Below are positions 56,787-64,000 of a stretch of DNA of 64,000 bases, one piece after another. Positions within the stretch are counted from its first letter, which is position 1. Each line of letters opens with the position of its first letter. The DNA comes from Actinomycetota bacterium (GTDB taxonomy: Bacteria > Actinomycetota > Aquicultoria > Aquicultorales > Aquicultoraceae): the NCBI GenBank assembly GCA_018333515.1, contig JAGXSZ010000023.1, forward strand, positions 62,001 to 126,000, read 5' to 3'. A model generated the notes under the pieces. The model searched no databases. It was not told the DNA's origin and saw only the letters and a program-made list of their open reading frames with translations. A program made the position numbers and the translations under genes.

Positions 56787-57176
56787 TTACCAAGTGGTTT
56801 CGATTATTTTGGATTCGATAATCTCTTGATCCTTGGTGATCAAAATTACTTCTTCCTCGAGACTATCTTGAAGCGCGAGGCACGTGGCGCATATTATTGC
56901 ATCGTGGATTTCTAAACCCTCCGGGAGGTAATCTAATGTGGTGTCATCAAGCGGATAGATGGTAACCCTCTCGTCATCGTCTAATAATTCTCTAACTTCA
57001 GTGAAAACGCTCGCGATTCGTTTCTTGTTGTAGAGGTGTTTTATTTCAGCAAGAACGATGGTAGGCACGACGATCGATGATTCAGCCGCGCGCATTATCT
57101 CTCGTGCTTCGCGACCTAGATTTTTGCTGCCTTCAATAAACCAGACAAGGGCGTGCGTATCAATAACGTAAATCAT
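56787..57176 (-). CDS. PIN-domain toxin (VapC-like)
   Basis: This 129-residue PIN protein has Asp6 in VIDTHALVWFIEG, Glu44 in TIVLAEIKHLYNK and Asp92 in EIHDAIICATCLAL. A late acidic residue is in ILITKDQEIIES. The protein would be an RNase. Its start overlaps the antitoxin stop by 4 nt. The antitoxin is not a known RHH type, so the pair is a less common variant. Confidence 0.85.
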   Translation of the reverse strand: MIYVIDTHALVWFIEGSKNLGREAREIMRAAESSIVVPTIVLAEIKHLYNKKRIASVFTEVRELLDDDERVTIYPLDDTTLDYLPEGLEIHDAIICATCLALQDSLEEEVILITKDQEIIESKIIETTW

Positions 57177-57364
57177 TTGAGCTCTTCAGGAGTACTAATC
57201 TCAACTGCCTTGATTTCGTCAAAAGAGGTATCGCTCCTGCCTTTTAGTAATCCATCCACCTGCGCCAAGGCTCTTTCTTTTTTCTTCTTTTTCGCCTGCC
57301 CCTTAAGAACTTTTATTTGCAGCTCAAGGCTCGCAATCTTGGTGGCAAGGTTTCCTTGTGCCAT
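57173..57364 (-). CDS. Antitoxin of the PIN module, coiled-coil type
   Basis: This 63-residue protein begins MAQGNLATKIASLELQIKVLKGQAKKKKKERA, a heptad pattern with a Lys-rich stretch, then ends with SDTSFDEIKAVEISTPEEL, a likely toxin-binding tail. It lies directly before the PIN gene with a 4-nt overlap. The ATG at 57364 has AAGGGGTGA upstream. I do not see a DNA-binding fold such as RHH or AbrB. Confidence 0.75.
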   Translation of the reverse strand: MAQGNLATKIASLELQIKVLKGQAKKKKKERALAQVDGLLKGRSDTSFDEIKAVEISTPEELK

Positions 57365-57433
57365 GTAAATCACCCCTTAACATATCGCATATATTGTAAC
57401 GCGGGTCGGCTCTTCATACAAGCTGCTTATTCA

Positions 57434-57471
57434 CGGGGTCGTTCCTGCAAGATTGAAAGATTGCGGAATCC
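57434..57471 (+). repeat. Short repeat, variant copy 2
   Basis: CGGGGTCGTTCCTG is followed by AAAGATTGCGGAATCC. The second half matches the inverted copy at 58532-58559. Confidence 0.65.
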
Positions 57472-57521
57472 CTGAGCTAGGATGTGTCTTATTGCGAAAA
57501 GAGGGTTGCAACGATATGCAA

Positions 57522-57914
57522 TCAGAAGATTTCTACAATTGTTTGTACTACCTTTTGGTAGTGCCTATCGGTGGTGAGTATCTTTAGCCCGTCCCGCATG
57601 GCTAAAGCGGAAATCCAGATATCGTTTGTGGGTATCGGGGTTCCTTTGTCTTTTAATGACGACAGAATTAAAGCATACCTTTCGGAAGTTTCTTCATCGA
57701 TTATCTGTAAGTAAACCCGGGGTGAAGACAGAAAGGTCTCTAGTTCGGTTCTGTTCTTCTTCTCTTTATTGCCCCTTATGAATCCGGCTAAGAGTTCTCC
57801 CAAAACTATGGGATTGAGATAAATTTCATCGGCTGCCTGAACCGCCTCAACAGCAGCCGGGTCGCCTTTAAAAAAAGCGGAGTATGCCGAGGTGTCCAAC
57901 AAAACCCGGTTCAT
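57522..57914 (-). CDS. VapC family PIN-domain toxin
   Basis: This 130-residue PIN RNase has Asp7 in VLLDTSAYSAFFKG, Glu40 in PIVLGELLAGFIRG, Asp97 in IPTNDIWISALAM and Asp115 in ILTTDRHYQKV; all four acidic positions are present. The ATG at 57914 overlaps the antitoxin stop by 4 nt. It is a standard VapBC-type module. Confidence 0.9.
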   Translation of the reverse strand: MNRVLLDTSAYSAFFKGDPAAVEAVQAADEIYLNPIVLGELLAGFIRGNKEKKNRTELETFLSSPRVYLQIIDEETSERYALILSSLKDKGTPIPTNDIWISALAMRDGLKILTTDRHYQKVVQTIVEIF

Positions 57915-58174
57915 CTCCACACATCCTCATCGATTCTTCTTTGCTCTTCAAGGTGCCTTTCAAACTCTTCCGCTTCCTCTGACGACCATGTTCCGGCAAG
58001 GCTATCCAGATCATGATAAACCGTCTTTTTGAGGGTCTTTTTTGCTGTTAGGCCCGCTCCTTTCTCGAGCAAAGAGACCACTACCTTGTTAGTGCTTAGG
58101 CCTTTCTTTCTAGCTTCTTCTTTTATCACTTTTTCTAATTCCGGCGCAATTCCTCTAATTGTCATCTGTTTCAT
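57911..58174 (-). CDS. VapB-type ribbon-helix-helix antitoxin
   Basis: This 87-residue antitoxin has an N-terminal RHH (MTIRGIAPELEKVIKEEARKKG, then STNKVVVSLLEKG) and an acidic C-terminus (SSEEAEEFERHLEEQRRIDEDVW) that would cover the PIN active site. The ATG at 58174 is my choice; a GTG at 58186 is possible. It is the first gene of the pair. Confidence 0.88.
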   Translation of the reverse strand: MKQMTIRGIAPELEKVIKEEARKKGLSTNKVVVSLLEKGAGLTAKKTLKKTVYHDLDSLAGTWSSEEAEEFERHLEEQRRIDEDVWR

Positions 58175-58268
58175 CAGACTGTTCACCTCACTTTATGACT
58201 CATATCGTCTCAATAATTGCATCATCACTCGTTTTTGTCAAGCACAACTATGGAAGAACGCGCGTTTT

Positions 58269-58583: not shown

Positions 58584-59225
58584 TTACCCCAGGATCTTGA
58601 AGAACTCGGTGATGACCCATCCGCCGCCGGCGATGAGAAAACCGAAATAGACAATCGTGGCGATATTGGAAAGGTTGCCGAGGAGAATAAAGCCGCCGTC
58701 GCGCTGGATCATCCCGACGGATAAAAAGATGAGCGCGAGCGCCGGCAGGGTGTTGCTAAATGGGATAAAGCCGAAAGGGGCCATGAGCAGTACCGCGGCG
58801 AGAATGAACGACAAATTACTCAAGACCGTCATCAAACCCTCAGAGGTCAACCCGCTCAAGCGGTGCGGACGGCTGATCCTTTCCAATCGGTGGAACCAGA
58901 CGAGGGCGCGCTTGAATCCCGCGCCGAGTTTTTCGGAGGATAATTTGCGATCCGCAATGGTTTTTGGAAGCCATAATTTGCGCGAAAACAGCCGGGTAAT
59001 TCCGATGAGCAGGATGCCGGTACCAAAAACCGTGCTGACACCCGGAATAGACACCGGTACGAGAAATATCAGGGAAAGAAATACGGTCAGAAGCAGGAGG
59101 CTATCGGCCCCGACGATATCCATAACTTCGATAAGGGTGACTTCGGAGGGGGGCAATTTCTCAATGGCGAGTTCGATCTTTTCCCCAAGTGATTCGGACT
59201 GGAGTGCGGATTCTTGAAATTTCAT
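58584..59225 (-). CDS. ExoD family membrane protein
   Basis: This 213-residue protein matches ExoD: an N-terminal soluble helix (ESLGEKIELAIEKLP), LIFLVPVSIPGVSTVFGTG, then the conserved FGFIPFSNTLPALALIFLSVGM and QRDGGFILLGNL. Four to five helices are predicted. ExoD was named for exopolysaccharide defects in rhizobia; its biochemical role is unknown. It lies between the toxin-antitoxin island and the subtilase gene, both on the same strand. Confidence 0.9.
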   Translation of the reverse strand: MKFQESALQSESLGEKIELAIEKLPPSEVTLIEVMDIVGADSLLLLTVFLSLIFLVPVSIPGVSTVFGTGILLIGITRLFSRKLWLPKTIADRKLSSEKLGAGFKRALVWFHRLERISRPHRLSGLTSEGLMTVLSNLSFILAAVLLMAPFGFIPFSNTLPALALIFLSVGMIQRDGGFILLGNLSNIATIVYFGFLIAGGGWVITEFFKILG

Positions 59226-59361: not shown

Positions 59362-62300
59362 TTATATGATTGAGCGCCTTCTTACGATTAGCAGCAAACC
59401 CAGCGCCGTGAGCATTGCGGCGAGCATCGCCAACATGTTGGTGTTGTGGCCGAAGGCTATCGTGGTAACCGCCGTCGTGCCGACTTCGTTTTCACCTACA
59501 GCGAACGGTGAGAGTGACGTCGTCATACCGATAATGATGTTGTTCTCGGTATCGACCTCCACCGTCACATCCTCCCACTTTTGGCCGTTCCAGTGCATTA
59601 ACTTCAAGTTCTTCTCGTTGCCTTTGATTAACGAGGGGTCGTATGGGATTGTTACCATGATTGTCCCCGAATAATTCGCCGTCGTACTGATATCGATGTG
59701 GTAACCCCTGAACCTGAAGTTCGCGTCGGGCGCTCCGTACGGCGGGTCGATGATGATAGTCGCCGACGTAATGCCGGCTACGAGCACATTGCTAAAGCTC
59801 ACTTTCACGCCGTTACCCAGCTCCACGTCGACAGACGTGCCGGGGTTGATCGATCGGCTTGCCCTGAACGTCGTCGCCTCAACGGTTTCGCTTACCGGCG
59901 ACCGGTTGCCCGCTGCGTCAAAGGCCGCGACGTAATAGCGGTAGGTGGTGTTTGGCGCCAGCCCTGTGTGCATATAGTTCGTCTTTTCCACGCTCACGAT
60001 TTTCTCGCCGTTGTCGGCGTTATAGACGTCGTAGCCGATGACCGCGACGTTGTCGGTCGCGGCCTCCCATTTGATAAAGACCTTACTATCATTCGGCGCC
60101 ATTGCCTTTACGTTTGTCGGGGCCGCCGGCTTTTGCGTGTCTACCTTAAGGACTGCGCTCCGTGCAGTCTCGGTGTTGTTTGAGGTGTCGACCGAGTAGA
60201 AATAGAGGGTGTGCTCCCCTTCCGGCGCGGTAAATGACCCAGAATATGTCGTCCAGTTCGCAGTTGCAGTCGAATCCCACTGGTAGTAGGTGGTAGCAGG
60301 CTCATTTGCGGTGAGACTCGCCGTGGTCGTGCTCTTAAACCAGCCGTTTTCCCCGTCGGGGCTGGTCGGGCTGGTGGAAAGGGTCGTGACCGGGGCTTGG
60401 GTGTCACTTGCCGCAGTCACCAAGACCGTCGCCGTTTCAACCTTGGCGGCCGCGTCAAAGGCCCGCAGACGGATTACAAAGTCTCCTTCGGCCAACGTGC
60501 GCGTGTCGAGTTGCCCCAGCGTCTCGTTGGTCTTCTGGGTGCTCGAGTTTGTTATCTCGGTCCAGCTTGCCGGGGATACCCCTTGGCCGAAGTCTAAGAT
60601 ATAGTTGACAAAGTTCGCGTCCGTCGCCGTGCCGCTGATGGTTACGATACCTGTGACAGTGCCGCCCGTCGGGCTCGTAATCGTGGCGGTGGGGGCGACT
60701 GTGTCTACCTTTATTGCCTGGCTCTTTACCGCCTCGGTGTTGCCTGATGTGTCCACCGAGTAGAAGTAGAGGGTGTGCTCCCCTTCCATCGAGGCGAAGC
60801 TTCCGCTATAGGTCGTCCAGGCGCCGGTGGTCGAACCCCACTGGTAGTAGGTAGTGCCGGGCTCATCCCTGGTCAAGGTGATAGACGGGGCGGTATTAAA
60901 CCAGCCGTTTGCCCCATCGGGGCTGGTCGGGTTGGTGGAAAGGGTCGTGATGGGGGCGGTTGTGTCTTTTACGGTCACAAAATCAAACGCATCGACATTT
61001 ACATCGTACCCCGATGAAGACGCGTTCTTGGTGCCGGCAACTTCGATCTTGATCGTATGGTTGCCGAGCGCCAAACCGGACTTCGTGTAGACCAGCTGCT
61101 GGTGGTCGCTCGTGCCGTAGAGGTCTACATCTTGCTGGTAGACGCCGTCTATGTAGACTTTGGCGATGCCGGATGCGGGGCTCTTCTGCGCGACCCACGA
61201 GACGCTCGTGCCATTAAACGAGTACGTGACCGAAACGCCGGTCGAGCTTGAATGCTTGAACGCGCCGCCGCTGGCGTTTGAAGAACTCCCGTTAGTCCAG
61301 GTGCCTGAATATGTCGCGGCGGCGCTGTTTTCCTCATCGTGGACTATAAGAGTTTTAACGGCTTTTTCGGCGTTGATACGGCCGTAGCCGAAGGTGTCGT
61401 CCCTGCCGGCGGCGCCGAGGTCATCGACGGTCGCCTGAATAGTGCGGCCGAGCTGCGCGCCCGTCTTACCCGGGTATACCGTCGCGATAAGCGCGGCCAG
61501 GCCGGCGACGTGCGGGGCGGCCATGGAGGTGCCGTTCATATAGACGTACTGGTTGCCGGGGTAGGTGCTCGCGATGCCGTTCGAGGCGGTGCCGTCGGCG
61601 TTGCCGCCCGGCGCGGCGACATCGACATACCAGCCGTAGTTGGAGTATGACGCTTTGCCGTCGTCGGTGCGCGTCGCCGAGACACCGATGACATTTTGAT
61701 ATCCCGCCGGGTAGAGGACATTGCTTGTGTTCCCGTTGCCGGCGGCGGCTACGACAAGACAGCCTTTCCCTTGCGCGTATACGACCGCATCGGCCATGGT
61801 TGATGAGTAGTCGTAGCCGCCGAGGCTTAGGTTGATGATTTTGGCGTTGTTGTCCGCCGCGTACCGGATACCGTTTGCGACAGTAGCATCGGTGCCGCTG
61901 CCGGAGCTGTTAAGCACTTTTACCGCAAGAAGTTTCGCGCCCCAGGAGACGCCGGCCACGCCTTGGGCGTTGTTGGTTATGGCGCCGGTGATGCCGGCAA
62001 CGTGCGTGCCGTGGCCGTGGTCGTCCATCGGGTCGTTGTCGTTGTTGATATAGTCGTAGCCTTTGATGACCTTAGTCGAGAGGTCGGGGTGGTTGTAATC
62101 GACGCCGGAGTCGACGACCGCCACGACGGTCTCGTTTCCGGTGGTCGTATCCCATGCCTGCGGCGCTTTTATCTTAGGCAGCGCCCACTGCACCCCATAA
62201 TTGGTGTCGTTCGGGGTTAGAAGCGCGTGGCGGTAGTAGTTTGGCTCGGCGTATTCAACGTCGGGGAGCTTCTCGTAGTTTGCTATCGCATTGTGCTCAT

Positions 62301-62583
62301 CAATGCCCTTTGGGAGTTTAACCCGGTGGGTCTTTGAGTTGCGCAGCTCTTCGAGCTTTTGCGCACCGATGCCCCTGTGGGCGTTGTCTATCTTAGAAGA
62401 GGTGGCGGTGGATTTAAACTTTACAAGAAGTTCGCCGGGGACGAACTCGCCTTCTATGGGCGCGCTTGAGCGCGGTATGCTCGGTAGGCCGGCGGGACTT
62501 GCGAACAGCGGAAGGATTGGCAATGATGAAAATATCATTGCGCAAATGAGCGCAAAACTCAGAAAACGGTGCCTTGTAAGCAT
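59362..62583 (-). CDS. Secreted subtilisin-family serine protease with Ig/FN3 modules and C-terminal anchor
   Basis: This 1073-residue S8 protease has a signal peptide (about 1-30), a propeptide (FVPGELLVKFKS...AEPNYYRH) and a catalytic domain with Asp158 in VVDSGVD, His191 in DDHGHGTHVAG and Ser353 in NGTSMAAPHVAG. Then follow a jelly-roll module (SSSTGVSVTYSF), two or more TTLSTNPTSPDG-type repeats, an FN3 domain, and a domain with ELGNGVKVSFSNV and GYHIDISTTANYSG. The tail reads AFGHNTN, a transmembrane helix, then RRR. The ATG at 62583 has GGGGTGA upstream. It probably acts at the cell surface. Confidence 0.92.
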   Translation of the reverse strand: MLTRHRFLSFALICAMIFSSLPILPLFASPAGLPSIPRSSAPIEGEFVPGELLVKFKSTATSSKIDNAHRGIGAQKLEELRNSKTHRVKLPKGIDEHNAIANYEKLPDVEYAEPNYYRHALLTPNDTNYGVQWALPKIKAPQAWDTTTGNETVVAVVDSGVDYNHPDLSTKVIKGYDYINNDNDPMDDHGHGTHVAGITGAITNNAQGVAGVSWGAKLLAVKVLNSSGSGTDATVANGIRYAADNNAKIINLSLGGYDYSSTMADAVVYAQGKGCLVVAAAGNGNTSNVLYPAGYQNVIGVSATRTDDGKASYSNYGWYVDVAAPGGNADGTASNGIASTYPGNQYVYMNGTSMAAPHVAGLAALIATVYPGKTGAQLGRTIQATVDDLGAAGRDDTFGYGRINAEKAVKTLIVHDEENSAAATYSGTWTNGSSSNASGGAFKHSSSTGVSVTYSFNGTSVSWVAQKSPASGIAKVYIDGVYQQDVDLYGTSDHQQLVYTKSGLALGNHTIKIEVAGTKNASSSGYDVNVDAFDFVTVKDTTAPITTLSTNPTSPDGANGWFNTAPSITLTRDEPGTTYYQWGSTTGAWTTYSGSFASMEGEHTLYFYSVDTSGNTEAVKSQAIKVDTVAPTATITSPTGGTVTGIVTISGTATDANFVNYILDFGQGVSPASWTEITNSSTQKTNETLGQLDTRTLAEGDFVIRLRAFDAAAKVETATVLVTAASDTQAPVTTLSTSPTSPDGENGWFKSTTTASLTANEPATTYYQWDSTATANWTTYSGSFTAPEGEHTLYFYSVDTSNNTETARSAVLKVDTQKPAAPTNVKAMAPNDSKVFIKWEAATDNVAVIGYDVYNADNGEKIVSVEKTNYMHTGLAPNTTYRYYVAAFDAAGNRSPVSETVEATTFRASRSINPGTSVDVELGNGVKVSFSNVLVAGITSATIIIDPPYGAPDANFRFRGYHIDISTTANYSGTIMVTIPYDPSLIKGNEKNLKLMHWNGQKWEDVTVEVDTENNIIIGMTTSLSPFAVGENEVGTTAVTTIAFGHNTNMLAMLAAMLTALGLLLIVRRRSII

Positions 62584-62627
62584 GAAATCACCCCGGAAAT
62601 ATGGCCAAACGTTCACTTATTATGTCA

Positions 62628-62656
62628 GCAACTGATTGGATAATTATAACATTACG
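62628..62656 (-). promoter_or_regulatory. Promoter-like element of the subtilase gene
   Basis: The minus strand has a perfect TATAAT (62643-62648), 60 nt before the ATG; the -35 is not convincing. The same 29-bp stretch, with two changes, precedes the surface-protein relic at 55088. Confidence 0.5.
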
Positions 62657-62713
62657 GCTTATGTGCTGCCATGCCTTCGCATACGGAAGCCCTGTTAATT
62701 TTTGGTTTTACCG

Positions 62714-62733
62714 CCTCCCCCTCAAGGGGGAGG
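62714..62733. terminator. Hairpin after the last surface protein gene
   Basis: CCTCCCCC and GGGGGAGG form an 8-bp stem closing on TCAA, 7 nt past the stop. No U-run follows. Confidence 0.45.
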
Positions 62734-62739
62734 AAAACA

Positions 62740-64000
62740 TTAGACCGTGCTTCTGCGCAGCACAAGCGCTGTGCCGAGCAGCATCATCGCGACTGCGAGC
62801 GCCGCGAGCAGGTTCGTGTTGTGGCCGAAGGCTATGGATGTCGCTGCCGTGGTGCCTTCTTCCTCGCCCACGCCGAACGGCGAGAGCGAGGTAGTCATGC
62901 CGGTAATCGTGTTGTTTACCGTATCCACCTCGACCGTGATATCTTCCCACTTCTGGCCGTTCCAGTGCATGAATTTAAGGTTCTTCTCGTTGCCCTTGAT
63001 CAACGACTCGTCGTACGAGACCGTTACCATGATGGCGCCCGCATAACCTGCCGTCGTGCTGATATCGATGTGATAGCCCCTGAACCTGAAGGTCGGTGTG
63101 GGAGTACCGTACGGCGGGTCGGTGATGACCGTCGCCGACGTAGTGCCTGATACGACTACGTTGCTAAAGCTCACTTTCACACCGTTACCCAGCTCTACAT
63201 TGACCGATGTGCCGGGGGCTGTCGATTTACTCCCCTGGAACGTTGTCGCCTCGACCGTGTTGCTTACCGGCGACTGGTTGCCGGCCGCGTCGAAGGCCGC
63301 AACGTAGTAGCGGTAGGCGGTGTTTGACGCCAAACCGGTATGCGTGAAGCTTGTTGTCGTCGTGCCGGCAATCTTCTGGCCGGTGTCGGCGTTATAGACG
63401 TTGTAGCCGGCGACCGCGATGTTGTCGGTCGACGCTTCCCACTCAATGAGAATCTTGCTCTCGCACAGCGCCGTTGCCTTCACGTTTGCCGGCTTCGACG
63501 GGGCTTGCGCGTCTACTTTCAAGACCACGCTCTTAACGACTTCGGTATTATTCGAGGTATCCATCGAGTAGAAGTAGAGTGTGTGTTGGCCTTCGAGCGC
63601 CGCAAAGCCGCCGCCGGCCGTCATCCATGGCCCTGTTGTCGAATCCCACTGATAGTATATGATTCCCGGTCGGTCGCTTGTGAGCGTTATCGTCGGAATC
63701 GTCTTGTACCAACCGTTTGAGCCATCCGGTGTCGTGGGGCTAAGCGTTATCGAGGTTGCCGGCGCGTCGACGAAGGCCGCTGTCGTAAACGACCACACCT
63801 TCGCTGTCGCCATCGCGGTCCCGGCCAGGTCCCTCACACCGGTCGTTATCGTAGCCGTGTAGGTCATCGAGCTTATCAGGTTGTTGGTGGGCTTAAGGGT
63901 GGCTGTCCGAGTGCCGGCATCGTATGTCACGGTGCCCGCGACCGGGTTATTCGCACTATCCATCAAGGTGACGGTGCTCGAGTTTATTGTCGATGGATCC
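62740..64000 (-). CDS. Surface protein with Big_5/FN3 modules and the same C-terminal anchor (partial)
   Basis: The frame is open to the window edge, so at least 420 C-terminal residues are seen. An SbsA-type Ig domain (INSSTVTLMDSANNPVAGTV...GVRDLAGTAMATAKVWSF) is followed by an SITLSPTTPDGSNGWY module, an FN3 domain (KPANVKATALCESKILIEWE) and the domain VELGNGVKVSFSNVVVSG...GYHIDISTTAGYAG. The end is FGHNTN, a transmembrane helix and RRSTV. From the DG module to the end it is a close paralogue of the subtilase C-terminus. It is probably a wall- or membrane-anchored adhesin or enzyme whose catalytic part lies outside the window. Confidence 0.88.
   Translation of the reverse strand, partial: DPSTINSSTVTLMDSANNPVAGTVTYDAGTRTATLKPTNNLISSMTYTATITTGVRDLAGTAMATAKVWSFTTAAFVDAPATSITLSPTTPDGSNGWYKTIPTITLTSDRPGIIYYQWDSTTGPWMTAGGGFAALEGQHTLYFYSMDTSNNTEVVKSVVLKVDAQAPSKPANVKATALCESKILIEWEASTDNIAVAGYNVYNADTGQKIAGTTTTSFTHTGLASNTAYRYYVAAFDAAGNQSPVSNTVEATTFQGSKSTAPGTSVNVELGNGVKVSFSNVVVSGTTSATVITDPPYGTPTPTFRFRGYHIDISTTAGYAGAIMVTVSYDESLIKGNEKNLKFMHWNGQKWEDITVEVDTVNNTITGMTTSLSPFGVGEEEGTTAATSIAFGHNTNLLAALAVAMMLLGTALVLRRSTV

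Follow-up and report, generated by a model that had tools for sequence, protein, structure and literature searches.

A conserved [FY]GxNT C-terminal tail on Aquicultoraceae surface proteins: a likely sortase-type sorting signal and its candidate partner sortase

Two neighboring surface proteins encoded at this locus share a C-terminal tail, which raises the question of whether the tail is a surface-sorting signal and which enzyme would read it. The window, the whole stretch of 64,000 nucleotides that was analyzed, corresponds to G000:C23:62001-126000 of a 2.33-Mb genome (G000) assembled in 40 contigs. Protein A (ORF 59362..62616, reverse strand, 1084 residues) is a secreted subtilase that comprises a signal peptide, a fervidolysin-like pro-domain, an S8 domain, a stalk of Ig/OmpL47-type and fn3 domains, and the tail. 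It has matches to PF00082 (E = 5.8e-63), PF22148, PF00041, and an OmpL47-type domain, and by inspection its N terminus (...MLTRHRFLSFALICAMIFSSLPILPLFASPA) is an export signal. Its C terminus is ...TTIAFGHNTN-MLAMLAAMLTALGLLLIV-RRRSII, in which the tail (IAFGHNTN, a hydrophobic helix, and RRRSII) is encoded at 59365..59460 on the reverse strand with the GHNTN codons at 59437-59451. Protein B (62740..64000, reverse strand, 5' end open) is the C-terminal part of a giant adhesin with Big_5, OmpL47-type, and fn3 domains; it extends past the window as far as C23:128525, where the contig ends, and has 1261 residues up to that point. It ends with ...TSIAFGHNTN-LLAALAVAMMLLGTALVL-RRSTV, and its tail (IAFGHNTN, a hydrophobic helix, and RRSTV) is at 62743..62835 on the reverse strand with the GHNTN codons at 62812-62826. 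The shared AFGHNTN, helix, and RR or RRR plus three residues noted in the preliminary description are confirmed, the common motif being IAFGHNTN, and the last 350 residues of A are 67% identical to those of B. The ORF directly 3' of protein A (58584-59225) resembles, by eye, ExoD-type exopolysaccharide proteins. Two neighboring pairs at 56787-58186, toxin-antitoxin-like in sequence appearance, consist of PIN-like proteins (56787-57176 and 57522-57920) and adjoining small ORFs (57173-57373 and 57911-58186, respectively).

Protein B is 71% identical to residues 1153-2420 of a giant protein of a related genome, G003, that has 2421 residues and the C terminus IAFGYNTN-helix-RRRSII, and an ORF with an open 3' end, at the edge of contig C37 of the window's genome, is 62% identical to residues 1-568 of the same giant. 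Because both fragments align with one protein, an assembly gap most likely divides the G000 gene, and the C37 ORF is probably the N-terminal part of the adhesin to which protein B belongs. This N-terminal piece has BNR/Vps10-like propeller matches, and its N terminus, by inspection, is hydrophobic like that of protein A. A TPR gene is found directly 5' of the giant adhesin gene in G000, G002, G003, G005, G008, and G010. Since the C37 fragment directly follows the TPR gene and B is the C-terminal part of the giant, the gene order at the window locus would be TPR, giant adhesin, subtilase. It is syntenic with the order TPR, giant adhesin, sortase in G010, so that the slot after the adhesin is occupied by a sortase in G010 and by protein A in G000. 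In relatives, SLH domains are present beside, or instead of, the tail-bearing proteins: G005:C25 encodes a Big_5-SLH protein near a subtilase (L071:3086-3829 and L071:4169-5644), and in G008:C100 (L241) what looks like the beginning of an SLH domain comes after the adhesin C-terminal domain. Surface anchors seem to have been swapped among these relatives.

Ten intact tails were identified in five Candidatus Aquicultoraceae genomes (two in G000, three each in G003 and G005, and one each in G001 and G010). They are distributed over several genera of the family and proteins of differing domain make-up, and the possibility that only two recent paralogues have the tail therefore fails. A further copy in G001 (RVAFGTNT) runs into a gap and is outside this set. 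The ten tails align as [IVAT]-[AG]-[FY]-G-x-N-T-[NY]-x-[LV], where P3 is mostly Ile or Val, with Thr or Ala in single copies; no variation occurs at the G, N, and T, and almost none at the [FY] and [NY] positions. The helix has a Gly at +17, and 28-32 residues separate the motif Gly from the protein end. Column identities in the linker preceding the motif are only ~0.1-0.2 in the same ten sequences, and the codons differ between copies (e.g. GGCCACAACACCAAC, GGTATAAACACCAAT, and GGGCTAAACACAAAC). The invariant residues beside a linker with almost no conservation indicate that conservation of the tail exceeds that expected from chance or simple descent.

A genome search for tail proteins, proposed in the preliminary description, added none in G000, where the tail profile found the tails of A and B and no others. 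The GHNTN DNA pattern has three matches in the whole 2.33-Mb genome, the third of which (C26:8178) was rejected as having no C-terminal tail, as was a GVNTN match at C27:11471. Among 396 genomes of the phylum, the profile (E ≤ 1e-5) matched only the five genomes with [FY]G tails, G015, which has a TG version, and, weakly, G034. A 52-residue tail query gave many weak matches across the class in frames of ~375 residues, from which only C-terminal ones bearing GxNT were retained.

Four PF04203 sortases are encoded in G000, on contigs C22, C9, C12, and C27. The sortase on C22 (C22:150491-151099, reverse strand, 206 residues) is probably the dedicated partner of the tail. Members of its subfamily score >350 bits against their own profile, with the next best sequence at 122, and the subfamily is present in seven of the 396 Actinomycetota genomes searched (G000, G001, G002, G003, G005, G008, and G010), all Aquicultoraceae. 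All five genomes with [FY]G tails are within this group, and [FY]GxNT tails are restricted to it, so that the co-occurrence across genomes sought in the preliminary description is observed. The other Aquicultoraceae, G004, G006, G007, and G009, have neither the sortase nor the tail. In G002 and G008 the sortase is present and no tail was seen; the giant genes there are broken by gaps or by the ends of contigs. The association within the family, 5/7 vs 0/4, has a hypergeometric probability of 21/462 = 0.045, calculated by hand for genomes that are close relatives. The closest named relatives of the C22 sortase are from Candidatus Aquicultor MAGs, which places the genome in Actinomycetota, class Candidatus Aquicultoria.

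Direct linkage of an [FY]G tail to a C22-subfamily sortase is seen in G010 only, where the sortase gene begins ~10 bp after a giant adhesin gene with a GYGLNTN tail; in the window's own genome the C22 sortase does not adjoin the tail proteins. In G005 and G008 the sortase gene is divergent beside a TPR paralogue, and in G005 a giant repeat protein is next. Canonical tails are found near two of the other G000 sortases, LPYTG (L066:2918-3538, on G000:C27) near that of C27 and QAETG (L113:5530-6114, on G000:C9) near that of C9, indicating that several sorting signals coexist in this genome. The search for a partner enzyme thus produced a probable sortase and no exosortase, as PF09721 has no match in G000 or the other four tail-bearing Aquicultoraceae genomes.

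Tails of equivalent layout in other families of the class retain a TG. They include VPSTG-YNTYWLL in G017, on a protein whose C terminus is 47% identical to that of B and which has a TPR gene nearby, APATG-LNTNMLL in G015, TSTG-YNENFLL in G021, and PGTG-VKANVLL in G034. G037, which belongs to another class, has a VTG-ANRNILT tail 12 bp before a sortase gene. TGxNxN tails were sought in G029, G025, G021, and G035, and only that of G021 was found. The alignment of VPSTGYNTYWLL with GIGFGYNTYVLL of G003:C128 indicates that the Thr of TG corresponds to Phe/Tyr and the P3 Pro to Ile/Val. The genomes with the nearest related sortases have VPSTGYNTY, APATGLNTN, and VTGANRN tails, which argues that the tail is an LPXTG-type signal. 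We read it as an LPXTG-type cell-wall sorting signal altered in Aquicultoraceae, in which the Thr before the cut would have been replaced by Phe/Tyr and the P3 Pro lost. Of the possible new surface-sorting signal first described, the sorting role is now well supported, with a probable partner sortase; because homologous VPSTG-YNTY and APATG-LNTN tails occur in other families, the system is not new in kind.

Sortase-like proteins with Ser in place of the catalytic Cys (LTL[IV]AS-ASSW vs LTL[IV]TC-xSTW) and with the His and Arg kept are encoded in two families of the class (L230:1750-2358 on G021:C181, L231:3228-3887 on G034:C151, and G035:C294:394-951). They may be sortases without activity or naturally occurring serine variants of the enzyme, and two of the genomes, G021 and G034, encode TG-type tails as well.

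The C22 subfamily is monophyletic (100/100) and joins only the sortases of G037/G029 and G015/G017, in a clade supported at 96/92. The non-family members of this clade include G015, G017, and G037, the three genomes with TG-x-N tails; two long-branch pairings in the tree were flagged as unsafe, which makes the branching order within the clade uncertain. The C22 protein has an N-terminal membrane helix and the conserved His, TC (TLxTC-like), and Arg of the sortase superfamily. Its AlphaFold2 model, from a 30-sequence alignment (pLDDT 88) that replaced one of six sequences (pLDDT 45), has a sortase barrel preceded by the N-terminal helix. The best fold matches in the PDB are class C sortases (E ~1e-11), and classes A, D, and E give comparable E-values. 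The sequence passes the general model TIGR01076 (58.5 vs a cut-off of 39.35) and is below every NCBIfam class cut-off (C, D, E, F, and GN), the best being 61 vs 160 bits for class C.

We consider it likely that the dedicated C22 sortase reads the tail, which would be a sortase-type (LPXTG) cell-wall sorting signal. The tails have the tripartite layout of motif, hydrophobic helix, and positively charged C terminus, and some homologues carry SLH anchors in place of the tail, which supports this reading; against it, none of the ten tails contains the P-x-T core of characterized signals, and no signal lacking that core is known for a characterized sortase. In the proposed mechanism, the tail-bearing proteins would be exported by Sec, and the helix and arginines would hold the C terminus in the membrane, where the membrane-bound C22 sortase would recognize [IV]-[AG]-[FY]-G-x-N-T-[NY]. 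The sortase Cys would attack the carbonyl of the Phe/Tyr, releasing G-HNTN-helix-RRR, and the protein would then be joined to an amine of the cell envelope. The C22 sortase as partner, [FY]|G as the cut bond, and the acceptor are what we infer from sequence. By homology with the VPSTG-YNTY and APATG-LNTN tails, the F|G cut in the tail of A would correspond to 59451/59452. The substrates would be the giant stalked adhesin with its propeller-like head and, in G000, also the subtilase, which has its C-terminal stalk and tail in common with the adhesin. It appears evenly balanced whether the acyl-enzyme of this natural subfamily involves an aromatic residue (Phe/Tyr|Gly), with x-N-T-N read past the cut, and whether the subfamily arose in Aquicultoraceae from a TG-reading ancestor. 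Such a specificity is not described for any sortase class and would possibly be a new one.

The position of the cut could be different. In a class-B-like register, the sortase would cut T|N inside G-x-N-T-N, as in NPQT|N, and the F/Y-G would be an upstream contact. The N and T are, with the G, the most conserved residues, SrtB reads NPQTN (PMC9126251), and the usual Thr acyl-enzyme would be kept. However, the related tails align TG with [FY]G, as in VPSTGYNTYWLL with GIGFGYNTYVLL. The NTN runs directly into the helix, and it is a cut at F|G that would give the 3-4 residue spacer of the genome's LPYTG and QAETG tails. In addition, the motif of G003:C128 ends in NTY, and the linked tail of G037 reads NRN, which lacks a Thr at that position. 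The T|N cut is unlikely, given how the TG tails align, the spacer, and a G037 tail without that Thr. It is improbable to a greater degree that the motif is part of a plain C-terminal membrane anchor, kept by descent and left unprocessed, as the preceding C-terminal domain common to most copies might suggest. An anchor would have no need of invariant G, N, and T residues next to a linker with almost no conservation. Proteins that are little alike in the preceding domain (24% for G003:C128 and 37% for G005:C32) also have the tail, and both the sortase linkage and the distribution would be left unexplained.

The enzyme might also be another one. The C9, C12, and C27 sortases exist in the same genome and could read the tail along with LPXTG-type substrates, but those of C9 and C27 are near canonical QAETG and LPYTG proteins, and close relatives of C9 and C12 are present in genomes that lack the tail, e.g. 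G004, G006, and G007; we regard this as very improbable. An enzyme other than a sortase, of the exosortase/archaeosortase, rhombosortase, or myxosortase type, would act on signals with the same tripartite layout. There is no PF09721 match in the five tail-bearing Aquicultoraceae genomes and no CTERM model of those systems at cut-off, and such an enzyme is hardly to be expected. With both Pro and Thr replaced, a matching sortase subfamily, and TG-type intermediates in sister families, the evolution of sortase specificity becomes directly testable. A C22-type enzyme could supply a ligase independent of LPXTG enzymes, and LPXTG searches would miss [FY]GxNT surface proteins or catch them by the helix alone.

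A P-x-T core is reported to be common to all sortase signals characterized by 2016, and the class motifs are LPXTG, NPXTN, LPXTA, and LAXTG, of which LAXTG has Ala for Pro and keeps the Thr (PMC5148588). A review table lists LPXTG, NPQTN, QVPTG, LPNTA, and LAXTG for natural enzymes and departures from Thr only for engineered sortases, e.g. LMVGG (PMC9126251). Literature searches returned no title or abstract that describes this tail signal. The initial observation that GHNTN is unlike known signals holds for the NCBIfam and Pfam sorting signals, which have no match at the motif and only matches driven by the helix. PEP-CTERM and other exosortase signals share the tripartite layout but fail to match the motif at cut-off, and an exosortase was not found; none of the CTERM models, including rhombosortase GlyGly-CTERM, reaches cut-off on the tail. 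The class B signal NPQTN also ends in T-N, but the tail lacks NP and is followed immediately by the helix, and there is no class B model among the C22 matches. Class C (pilin) sortases, e.g. Streptococcus agalactiae SrtC1, are the best PDB matches in fold and sequence, but the C22 sortase scores 61 vs 160 bits and no tested feature marks its substrates as pilins. The model for a class D sortase with an LPxTATN signal (NF058671) implies by its name a T-N just before the helix and has moderate similarity to the C22 sortase (4.8e-15); the sortase nevertheless scores 55.7 vs a cut-off of 140, and the tail lacks LPxTA. The LPXTG signal (TIGR01167/PF00746) differs in that the tail has no L-P-x-T, has I/V at P3 and F/Y at P1, and has an additional N-T-[NY] after the Gly; the tail peptide of A scores 18.3 vs a cut-off of 15.9 bits with TIGR01167, a score that comes from the helix and arginines rather than from LPXTG. 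The two are alike in having a C-terminal motif, helix, arginines, spacer length, and a partner sortase in the genome, and homologous TG versions of the tail are present in other families of the class.
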